DNA from: an uncultured Alphaproteobacteria bacterium
Lineage (GTDB): Bacteria; Pseudomonadota; Alphaproteobacteria; HIMB59; GCA-002718135
Reading direction: 5' to 3'
Length of the DNA: 64,000 nucleotides
Assembly (NCBI GenBank): GCA_902572735.1
Contig: CACGGX010000003.1
Coordinates: 1 to 64,000 of the forward strand
The notes under the pieces are model-generated. The model ran no database searches, had not been told where the DNA came from, and saw nothing but the letters and a program-made list of their open reading frames with translations. The position numbers and the translations under genes are program-made. Shown piece by piece: positions 15,501 through 17,627 of this stretch (its first letter is position 1; every line of letters begins with the position of its first letter).

Positions 15501-15925
15501 AATATGCATTTATCACAGTTTCAGAAATTGGTTATCAGTTCGAGTTAACAATATTTAGTGAAAATTTATATAAATTTCGCCCTATCTTAAAAGAGGGTAA
15601 TTTATTAGTATTTACAATAGACATTGTAAAAAATAATGCAGATACTCGTTTTATTATTAGAGATATTTTTTCCCTTGACTCAATTTTTGCAAAAAATAGA
15701 TATAAGTTTAATATTTATTCAAATATGAGTAACATGATCGAATTAAAGAATAATATTTTTGAAAAAAAACATAATAACACTACAAATAATTTTATTGAAT
15801 TATTCATAACAGTTGATCAAAAACTAATTAACTTTGATTTTAATAAATATTCAATTAAATCATTCAAAAAACTTGATGAACTAAATAAATCCAAAATCTT
15901 AGATTATTCTTTAGAAATCTCTTGA
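12521..15925 (+). CDS. dnaE: DNA polymerase III alpha subunit
   Basis: A 1134-residue replicative polymerase of the C family. It opens with a PHP domain whose metal motif is degenerate (FIHLRSLSSYSLSES), as in other proteobacteria that rely on a separate epsilon proofreader. The catalytic aspartates lie in MPDFDIDFCQTRRDEV at about residues 388-403, preceded by the nucleotide-handling motif GPGRGSGAGSLVAWCLGITD. FNKSHAAAYALISYQTAYLK and the fingers/beta-binding regions follow, with an OB-type region after residue 960. It overlaps lolD by 8 bases. It is the last gene before the 98-base gap in front of rpsB. Confidence 0.96.
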   Translation: MNNPFIHLRSLSSYSLSESTLKITTLVDLAKKNNMPAIAITDNNNMFGVFEFSKECVKNNIQPIIGTSINLLDIIVNNQISQITFLVKNEIGYRNLLELSSLSHLNEGNNIGIYFSQLEKFSDGLFCYMGGELNPLLLLNKENRKKDIIQLITNFKGIFKKNFLFEIQRIKDQNIDFFEKEFINLSKEFNIPLIGSNNIKYANKDDYSAHDALLCIAQKSTINNSQRNTSNENIYFKSSEEMHLNFEDIPEIIKNNLNISLSCNYFPESTKPQLPEFINDQNLSAEDFLLQSSDLGLDKKIKEKNIKNVEIYTDRLKYENEIIIRMGFAGYFLIVADFVNWAKDQQIPVGPGRGSGAGSLVAWCLGITDLDPLEYDLLFERFLNPERVSMPDFDIDFCQTRRDEVIEYVNKKYGSECVAHIITFGTLASRAAVRDIGRVLEVPYGEVDSFAKLIPFNPSNPLTLSESIKSEKSLQERIRVDERISNIIDISLKIEGTHRHASTHAAGVVIGHEKLSKVVPLYKDQNTNTNATQFSMKYVEEAGLIKFDFLGLTTLSIIDDCVKLILRENKNFLIENIPLNDSKTYDQLSKGDTVGIFQLESNGMGSVLRQLQPDRFEEIIAVVALFRPGPMDNIPSFCNRKHGREEIKYLHSMLEDVLKETYGIIVYQEQVMQIAQVLSNYSLGEADLLRRAMGKKIQKEMDRQKSRFIEGAIQNKIEKKEASKIFDLVDKFAGYGFNKSHAAAYALISYQTAYLKANFPHEFLTATLNYSIDRTEKIILLKQEIERLNINFLKPDINYSNPLFSIETNENSKSIRFGLGAIKGVGIKSISSMVDERNKNGKFKNIIDFMNRVSKEVINKRQLEKLIQAGAFDSIESNRSKLFTNVPKFVDLYGSEKDLNQDMLFEDNEISFNDKNLFNQNYKTWKNSEILSNELEVIGFYFSDHPLNHYPRKFFELENINSFKDYSENNNNGSIKVCGAILDIKERSNKDGKKYAFITVSEIGYQFELTIFSENLYKFRPILKEGNLLVFTIDIVKNNADTRFIIRDIFSLDSIFAKNRYKFNIYSNMSNMIELKNNIFEKKHNNTTNNFIELFITVDQKLINFDFNKYSIKSFKKLDELNKSKILDYSLEIS

Positions 15926-15949
15926 AAAAATTACATATTACAATAATAG
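15922..15949 (+). promoter_or_regulatory. Candidate promoter for rpsB operon
   Basis: TTGAAA at 15922-15927, overlapping the dnaE stop codon, is separated by 16 bases from TAATAG at 15944-15949. A transcript from here would begin near 15956 and carry the leader hairpin described at 15972-16015. The assignment is by resemblance to sigma70 hexamers in AT-rich DNA, so it is tentative. Confidence 0.35.
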
Positions 15950-15971
15950 ATCAAACAAATTAAATCTAGCA

Positions 15972-16018
15972 CACAGAAAAAACCGGTGTTTTTCTTTCTG
16001 TGGAGGTTAAACCGGGAG
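15972..16018 (+). ncRNA. Structured 5' leader of rpsB (candidate autoregulatory element)
   Basis: An 8-bp perfect stem pairs 15972-15979 (CACAGAAA) with 15995-16002 (TTTCTGTG). Its loop contains CCGG at 15983-15986, and CCGG recurs at 16012-16015 just before the ribosome-binding sequence GGGAG (16014-16018). CCGG is self-complementary, so loop and downstream copy can pair (CCGGU with ACCGG, 5 bp), forming an H-type pseudoknot that would mask the ribosome-binding site. Ribosomal protein S2 is known to repress its own operon through the leader in other bacteria. That this leader does so is inference. Confidence 0.5.
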
Positions 16019-16023
16019 TTATT

Positions 16024-16779
16024 ATGAATTTACCAGAAGTTAAAATCGAAGATCTTCTTGAATCTGGCGTACACTTTGGTCACAATGTAAGAAGATGGAA
16101 TCCAAAAATGAAAGAATACATATATGGTGTAAGAAATAACATTCATATTTTTGACTTAAGAATTACAGTAGAGTTATTAAATACTGCTCTTACTAAAATT
16201 CATGAAACTGTTTCAAAATCTGGAAAGATACTTTTTGTTGGAACAAAAAAACAGTGTAGCGAAGTTGTAAAAGAATTAGCAATGTTAGATAATAATTTTT
16301 ATGTAAACAAAAGATGGTTGGGTGGAACTTTAACTAATTGGAAAACAATCTCAAATTCAATTAAGAGATTAGAAGAAGTAGAATTATTTTTAAAAGATAA
16401 CGATTTATCAAAAAATTTATCAAAAAAAGAATTACTGGACATTTCAAGGGAAAAGCAAAAACTTGAATTGAATATTGGTGGAGTCAGAAATCTAAATGGT
16501 AAACCAGACTTATTAGTAGTTTTTGACGTTATTAAAGACAAGATAGCAGTAAAGGAAGCTGCAAAACTTAATATACCAGTTGTTGCTGTAGTTGACTCTA
16601 ATGCTGATCCAGAAAATATTGATTATATTATCCCTGGAAACGATGATGCACTTCGATCAATAAATTTATATAAAAATTATTTTTTTGAAACTATTAAAGA
16701 TGCAACTAACCTCCAAGATAAAACTACTAATAAAGAGAGTGAAATTATTGGAGATGTAAAAATAAAGGATGAAAAATAA
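16024..16779 (+). CDS. rpsB: 30S ribosomal protein S2
   Basis: A 251-residue S2 protein starting MNLPEVKIEDLLESGVHFGH, followed by the conserved RRWNPKMKEYIYG. Near the C-terminal part, VVAVVDSNADPENIDYIIPG is a signature region. The ATG at 16024 is chosen over an in-frame GTG at 16000 because the family begins near LPEVKI, GGGAG lies six bases upstream, and the GTG sits inside the leader stem. S2 binds late on the 30S body/head junction. The stop overlaps the tsf start by one base, the universal rpsB-tsf pairing. Confidence 0.95.
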   Translation: MNLPEVKIEDLLESGVHFGHNVRRWNPKMKEYIYGVRNNIHIFDLRITVELLNTALTKIHETVSKSGKILFVGTKKQCSEVVKELAMLDNNFYVNKRWLGGTLTNWKTISNSIKRLEEVELFLKDNDLSKNLSKKELLDISREKQKLELNIGGVRNLNGKPDLLVVFDVIKDKIAVKEAAKLNIPVVAVVDSNADPENIDYIIPGNDDALRSINLYKNYFFETIKDATNLQDKTTNKESEIIGDVKIKDEK

Positions 16780-17627
16780 TGAGCATAACAGATCTTATTA
16801 AGGAATTAAGAGAAAAAACTGGTGCTGGTTTCTTAGATTGTAAAAAATCACTAGAAGAAAACAATAATGATATCGAAAAATCAATTGAATCTCTTAGAAA
16901 AAAAGGATTAGCTAAAGCATCAAAAAAAAGTGAACGTGCTGCCATTGAAGGAGCAGTTGGCTTTTACTCAAATCAAGATATTACTGTATTAATTAAAGTT
17001 AATAGTGAAACTGATTTTGCAGCTAAAAGTAATACCTTTTTAGATTTTCTAGATAGTTTAGGTAATTTAGTTTTAGATAATAATAAAAGTTTAGACAAGG
17101 ATCAGTTTCTTAAAATTAAGTATGATAATGGTACTGTTCAAGATTATTTTAATTCAATGATAGCAAAAGTAGGTGAGAATTTAGTTCTAAATGAATTGAT
17201 TATTAAAGAAAATAAAAATTCTCATTATTCATTTTATATACATAATAGTTATAGAAAAAATATAGGTAAAATTATTTCTCTCTTAGAGTATTCAACTACT
17301 GAAAAAAATACTGAAATTGAAAGTTTATCTAAGAATTTATGTATGCATATTGCCGCAATGAAACCTGAGTCTATAGATATTATTGATCTAGATAAAGAAC
17401 TTATAAGTAAAGAAGAAAAAATTCAAAAAGAGTTAATTCTTAATTCTGGAAAACCATCAAATATAGCTGATAAAATATTAGAAGGTAAAATGAAAAAATT
17501 TTATAGTGAGATAACTTTACTAAATCAATCTTATATTTTGGATCAAGATCAGACTGTAAGAAAAATCATTGATCAATATTCAAAATCTAATTTTAAAATT
17601 ATTTCTTTTGAATTGATTAGTTTATAA
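16779..17627 (+). CDS. tsf: Elongation factor Ts
   Basis: A 282-residue nucleotide exchange factor that regenerates EF-Tu-GTP. The N-terminal UBA-like domain has KELREKTGAGFLDCKKSLEE (about residues 9-28), and the core exchange motif NSETDFAAKS is at about 76-85. The second core repeat contains MHIAAMKPESI. The length matches the family. It overlaps rpsB by one base and is followed by pyrH after one base. Confidence 0.95.
   Translation: MSITDLIKELREKTGAGFLDCKKSLEENNNDIEKSIESLRKKGLAKASKKSERAAIEGAVGFYSNQDITVLIKVNSETDFAAKSNTFLDFLDSLGNLVLDNNKSLDKDQFLKIKYDNGTVQDYFNSMIAKVGENLVLNELIIKENKNSHYSFYIHNSYRKNIGKIISLLEYSTTEKNTEIESLSKNLCMHIAAMKPESIDIIDLDKELISKEEKIQKELILNSGKPSNIADKILEGKMKKFYSEITLLNQSYILDQDQTVRKIIDQYSKSNFKIISFELISL

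Follow-up and report, generated by a model that had tools for sequence, protein, structure and literature searches.

A compact rpsB leader with a pseudoknot strand on the Shine-Dalgarno sequence, assigned to the published rpsB motif

The leader of rpsB in the window (the whole 64,000-nt stretch of DNA analyzed here) belongs, as judged by sequence comparison, to the rpsB leader motif published by Meyer et al. (2009; Rfam RF01815). Our main reading, to which we give a probability of roughly 0.75, is that this leader is a compact member of the family in which a pseudoknot hides the ribosome-binding site and that ribosomal protein S2 would stabilize the pseudoknot, with excess S2 repressing rpsB-tsf. 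This reading draws on the leader's sequence and on analogy with the Escherichia coli leader.

The genome carrying the window is 1.32 Mb in 40 contigs, with a completeness of 83%. The leader lies between dnaE and rpsB in a spacer of 98 nt (15926 to 16023). The claim of the original prediction that this is the largest spacer in the window holds among ORFs of at least 70 amino acids (aa), where the next spacers are ∼60 nt; the first 162 bases of the window contain no such ORF and stand outside this ranking. The features are collected in Table 1.

Table 1. Position of the rpsB leader, its parts, and the neighboring genes in the window
Feature	Position	Strand	Basis
dnaE, upstream neighbor of the rpsB leader	ends at 15925		
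Whole rpsB leader element (P1, loop, linker, pseudoknot 3' strand, Shine-Dalgarno)	15969..16018	+	model R1 match
P1 5' strand, CACAGAAA; conserved CA just before	15972..15979	+	sequence; P1 covariation
Loop strand (5') of the pseudoknot, CCGGU; conserved G (15988) next	15983..15987	+	genus conservation; class compensation
P1 3' strand, TTTCTGTG	15995..16002	+	sequence; P1 covariation
Linker, GAGGUUAA, P1 to pseudoknot strand	16003..16010	+	comparison with class and E. coli
Pseudoknot 3' strand, ACCGG, overlaps Shine-Dalgarno	16011..16015	+	comparison; overlap count
Shine-Dalgarno, GGGAG, 5 nt upstream of ATG (16024)	16014..16018	+	sequence
rpsB, ribosomal protein S2, 251 aa	16024..16779	+	ORF; NCBIfam TIGR01011, E 8.4e-92
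tsf, elongation factor Ts, same operon as rpsB	16779..17627	+	ORF; named by sequence and place

The perfect 8-bp stem of the original prediction (P1) was found at the positions in Table 1, as were its two CCGG tetramers, one in the loop (15983 to 15986) and one in the GGGAG region (16012 to 16015). In the window, the pseudoknot would have five pairs, CCGGU/ACCGG, joining the loop with the 3' extension after P1; inside P1, 3 nt precede the loop strand and about 7 nt follow it. The original prediction also held that these GC-rich tetramers stand out in AT-rich DNA, and they do: the window is 27.0% GC and has 14 CCGG in 64 kb. A census of perfect 8-bp stems with loops of 8 to 25 nt on both strands of the window returned 216 hairpins (108 on each strand), and among them only the rpsB leader hairpin had in its loop an all-GC tetramer able to pair at most 16 nt downstream. 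This combination did not occur in ten Markov-1 random 64-kb strings. Nested folding of the leader was unremarkable (z = +0.71; 153 of 200 shuffles were equally or more stable), and thus the case for structure is comparative rather than thermodynamic.

Of 91 genomes searched in the genus (own genome included), most of them incomplete, 63 have an rpsB match. Adding 17 named records, which partly repeat these genomes, gave 80 leader records; in all 80 the loop has CCGGUG and the ATG is preceded by ACCGG. P1 is nearly invariant within the genus, with a compensated CAGGAA/UUCCUG in one genome (L062 and its named copy). Because the pseudoknot pair is invariant there, the genus alone is unable to test it; we tested it instead on the sister family (37 leaders) and on leaders sampled evenly across the class.

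In 30 training leaders from outside the genus, two-sided changes occur at all eight P1 pairs and at two of the five pseudoknot pairs. All pseudoknot cells in these leaders are paired, a share that is biased upwards because the leaders were picked for compactness, P1 was located by complementarity, and two leaders of family f2 (L079 and L090) were skipped. The covariation score of the 30 leaders was 0.766, compared with 0.254 ± 0.022 for shuffles and at most 0.201 for slid structures; because rows within families are kin, shuffle counts here and below are not probabilities. In a second alignment (A2) of 22 rows that includes the window, all 13 pairs form in every row, and the pseudoknot changes are one-sided only.

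In 77 leaders from the class, we counted CCGGU/ACCGG 60 times and two-sided changes 10 times; 3 leaders lack a convincing pair. The two-sided variants are UCGGU/ACCGA (four leaders), CUGGU/ACCAG (three), and CUGGU/ACUAG, UUCGU/ACGAG, and GCGGU/ACCGU (one each). Of 12 variant 3' strands, 11 had their own loop partner (mean for shuffled strands, 1.0; max, 6; 500 trials). Alone, this count does not discriminate, because 9 of the 12 leaders concerned also contain the standard CCGGU partner if wobble pairs are allowed. The class set takes in eight named records (L152, L154, L155, L156, L158, L160, L162, and L166), several of them closely related, and L005 of the compact family f10. The leaders without a convincing pseudoknot are L133, L250, and L251; these and L247, which by eye has UUCGGU/ACCGAA, were excluded from the distance and Shine-Dalgarno counts given below. 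The 77 leave out six loci without the GxHFGH anchor (L153, L224, L240, L242, L243, and L254), of which five show the motif by eye and L254 has no visible motif. Outside the class set, L262 of family f10 was likewise not anchored. Four of the 86 class genomes have no rpsB match, and six others (G144, G167, G187, G189, G205, and G210) have an incomplete rpsB, so that their leaders were not included. One of the anchorless loci, L243 (G166:C140), carries CCGAU/AUCGG, by eye a further two-sided pseudoknot change outside the 77 counted.

The loop pairing proposed in the original prediction, an H-type pseudoknot expected to show a conserved CCGG pair and covariation, is thus supported by comparison: all 80 genus records keep the pair, some other members of the class have it in compensated form, and P1 covaries at 8 of 8 pairs. 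The same evidence bears on the reading of the structure as a terminator or a chance hairpin at the end of dnaE. The hairpin does follow dnaE directly and a T run is present, but a scan returned no terminator-like sites, and conservation together with P1 covariation across families already refutes this reading, whose probability we consider negligible.

We built a covariance model (R1) of P1 and sequence, 58 positions long, from the 30 compact leaders, none of which came from the window's genus. In the window, a cmsearch with R1 found the leader element with 40.5 bits (E = 1.1e-10), the next best match having 9.3 bits; in the own genome, the leader had an E value of 2.3e-9 and the next best match 16.2 bits. 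Over 151 relatives, 104 genomes were matched at an E value of ≤0.01. R1 matched every one of the 63 genomes of the genus that carry rpsB, every one of 37 in the sister family (13 of these leaders were in the training set), and 3 of 8 other relatives (two of the three were in the training set). A weak match in a genome without a detected rpsB (G034; E = 0.0099) was taken as chance. The E. coli leader was matched weakly (12.9 bits; E = 0.013 in 13 kb).

The original prediction left open whether the leader belongs to a described rpsB leader family; it does. Like the RF01815 motif, which according to the published text lies nearly always 5' of rpsB (Meyer et al. 2009; PMC2704228), the element stands directly upstream of rpsB, here after dnaE. 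It shares the long stem P1 (8 bp in the window), a pseudoknot of about five pairs, the CCGGUG and AACCGG sequences, and a GMGG linker, a form common to the window, most of the class, and E. coli; the same pseudoknot is part of the published description as given there (PMC2704228). Unlike the usual motif, the window leader lacks the side stems P2 and P3, and the 3' strand of its pseudoknot, which in the usual motif is upstream of the Shine-Dalgarno sequence, overlaps that sequence here. The lack of P2 and P3 is not disqualifying, because the published definition treats these stems as optional and describes members without them (PMC2704228). A Pelagibacteraceae record (L153) has the P1 of the window (GCACACAG...CUGUGG) with P2 and P3 retained inside it.

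The Rfam search suggested in the original prediction did not bear out this membership. RF01815 (cut-off, 40 bits) failed to match the window leader, and Rfam as a whole returned nothing useful for it at the gathering threshold or at an E value of ≤10 (rli60 and mir-703 were far below their cut-offs). None of the 151 relatives had an RF01815 match above the cut-off, which counts against the assignment to the rpsB motif, although the cut-off is a curation threshold and not a biological feature. Weak matches of 19 to 26 bits were located exactly at the leader in seven other genomes of the genus; a match in the own genome (C7, 20.1 bits), away from the leader, was taken as chance. In the class, 49 of 86 genomes were matched at an E value of ≤0.001, and 21 of 86 were above the cut-off. 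Rfam probably misses the window copy because P2 and P3 are gone. The family, then, was described in 2009 and is covered by an Rfam model, which simply misses the window copy. Meyer et al. already list gammaproteobacterial members in their text (PMC2704228), and compact marine forms may already be within their alignment. A literature search on RF01815 and the rpsB motif returned, by title, no paper on the window's lineage. The part of a 2020 survey of new ribosomal leaders consulted here gives no new S2 leader (PMC7247131), and a Magnetospirillum transcriptome includes an Rfam "rpsB" match with a mapped transcript start (PMC9549626).

The window leader also resembles the E. coli rpsB leader (t44; RF00127), which has CACAC before P1, GUGGAGGNNUAAC after it, a 7-nt linker, and GGUG in the loop. 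The E. coli pseudoknot, GGGGU/ACCCC, is in the same register and in the same frame of P1, GAGG, and linker. In contrast to the window leader, the E. coli leader has long inner stems, and its pseudoknot strand, as read from the sequence, ends 24 nt before the ATG, with a separate Shine-Dalgarno. The RF00127 model matched none of 58 class genomes, own genome included. By our reading of the sequences, RF01815 and RF00127 would be parts of one family; the Rfam rpsB and t44 models look like two parts of it, with the compact members in streamlined marine bacteria missed.

The loss of P2 and P3 is reflected in the distance from P1 to CCGGU, with a median of 3 nt in the genus and the sister family compared to 33 nt in the class sample. 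The distance from the end of the pseudoknot strand to the ATG had a median of 8 nt in the genus (range, 5 to 9; n = 63), 7 nt in the sister family (range, 7 to 12; n = 37), and 17 nt in the class (range, 8 to 37; n = 73). Among the same leaders, the pseudoknot 3' strand overlaps the Shine-Dalgarno in 60 of the 61 with a recognized Shine-Dalgarno in the genus, in 36 of 36 in the sister family, and in 7 of 72 in the class. The rpsB leaders of family f10 (L005 and L256 to L269) are likewise compact, without P2 or P3, and in 12 of 13 the pseudoknot strand lies 7 to 9 nt before the start, which is ATG in those 12. They differ from the window in that most have CUGGU in the loop (with a U-G pair to ACCGG) and a linker other than GAGG. 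Since f10, which is AT-rich, is also compact, compaction and fusion with the Shine-Dalgarno appear to go together in small AT-rich genomes. We suggest, with a little less than even confidence, that the S2 leader in the window's order and in one further AT-rich family has been cut to a bare H-type pseudoknot of ∼50 nt with its 3' strand on the Shine-Dalgarno. It would be a minimal natural S2 operator acting by direct occlusion, unlike the E. coli operator, which is reported not to include the ribosome-binding site. With such a candidate ∼50-nt target, the question of how translation is repressed by S2 could be put to a simple occlusion model.

In the proposed mechanism, P1 forms and the loop CCGGU pairs with the downstream ACCGG as an H-type pseudoknot, the step for which comparison argues. 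Because the last two G of ACCGG are shared with the Shine-Dalgarno in the window's lineage, the folded pseudoknot should, from its position, hide the ribosome-binding site. In E. coli, free S2, assisted by S1, represses rpsB-tsf via the leader, according to the account in PMC10931766. By homology, free S2, perhaps with S1, would bind and stabilize the knot here, and excess S2 would lower the translation of rpsB-tsf; S2 repression of the operon is in our view a sound inference from this analogy. The homology with E. coli does not extend to the occlusion step, because the Shine-Dalgarno there is said, in the same account, to lie outside the S2 operator (PMC10931766). Since the Shine-Dalgarno is part of the window pseudoknot, direct occlusion stabilized by S2 would be the simplest reading.

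An alternative we regard as unlikely is that the pseudoknot serves as a fixed element, setting the translation rate of rpsB or protecting the mRNA, and that S2 has ceased to act on it in this streamlined lineage. In favor of this reading, the leader has lost P2 and P3, and AT-rich, tightly spaced genomes may retain just a structure that tunes the ribosome-binding site. Against it, the GGUG of the loop, the linker, and P1 are conserved between E. coli and the window, and this conservation favors a retained protein target; Meyer et al. also describe members without P2 and P3 (PMC2704228). That the ligand would be another factor of the operon or ribosome in place of S2, such as EF-Ts or S1 alone, is very improbable: although tsf is directly 3' of rpsB and S1 aids S2 in E. 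coli, the cited passages give S2 as the repressor of the homologous E. coli leader (PMC10931766) and place the motif nearly always before rpsB (PMC2704228).

The original prediction also proposed an inner extension of the hairpin that would leave the start of rpsB open, that is, a two-state switch in which P1 with an A/U-rich inner helix and a CCGGUG hexaloop leaves the Shine-Dalgarno open and the pseudoknot closes it. One genome (L011 and its named copy) has a compensated inner pair, AUAAA/UUUAU, but in a related genome this change lacks compensation (AAUAAA with UUUUU), and the A/U inner helix is not shared by f2, f10, or the class. Adding a 3-bp inner helix to P1 was computed to be less stable (−6.6 versus −7.9 kcal/mol). 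The two states are not necessarily mutually exclusive, because the hexaloop could still make the pseudoknot. This part of the prediction is weakly supported, by one compensatory change; the extension gives no energy gain in the tested form and is not needed, and we consider the switch improbable. The S2-stabilized pseudoknot remains our preferred reading.

Several minor features of the region were observed. GGAGG in the linker (16002 to 16006) resembles a second Shine-Dalgarno 17 nt upstream of the ATG; because the class has A or C as its middle base, the RNA motif more probably accounts for it. A GTG start for rpsB at 16000 was dropped, as the GTG is not kept by all relatives. In many leaders of the genus, TATAAT-like DNA lies ∼30 nt before P1 (15930 to 15955 in the window), possibly a −10 box, from which a leader of ∼65 to 70 nt would result. 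A simple promoter scan of the window found nothing convincing and did not call this site. TTGA upstream, present in 63 of 63 leaders, was not used as a promoter element; in the window it coincides with the dnaE stop codon. In two f2 genomes (L107, G131:C3; L106, G126:C27), rpsB is split or stop-ridden while the leader is intact, perhaps through sequencing errors or decay. A palindromic repeat at L003:194-379 matched Rfam WsnRNA46 (Wolbachia sRNA 46) below the cut-off on both strands, with 37.0 and 33.7 bits.
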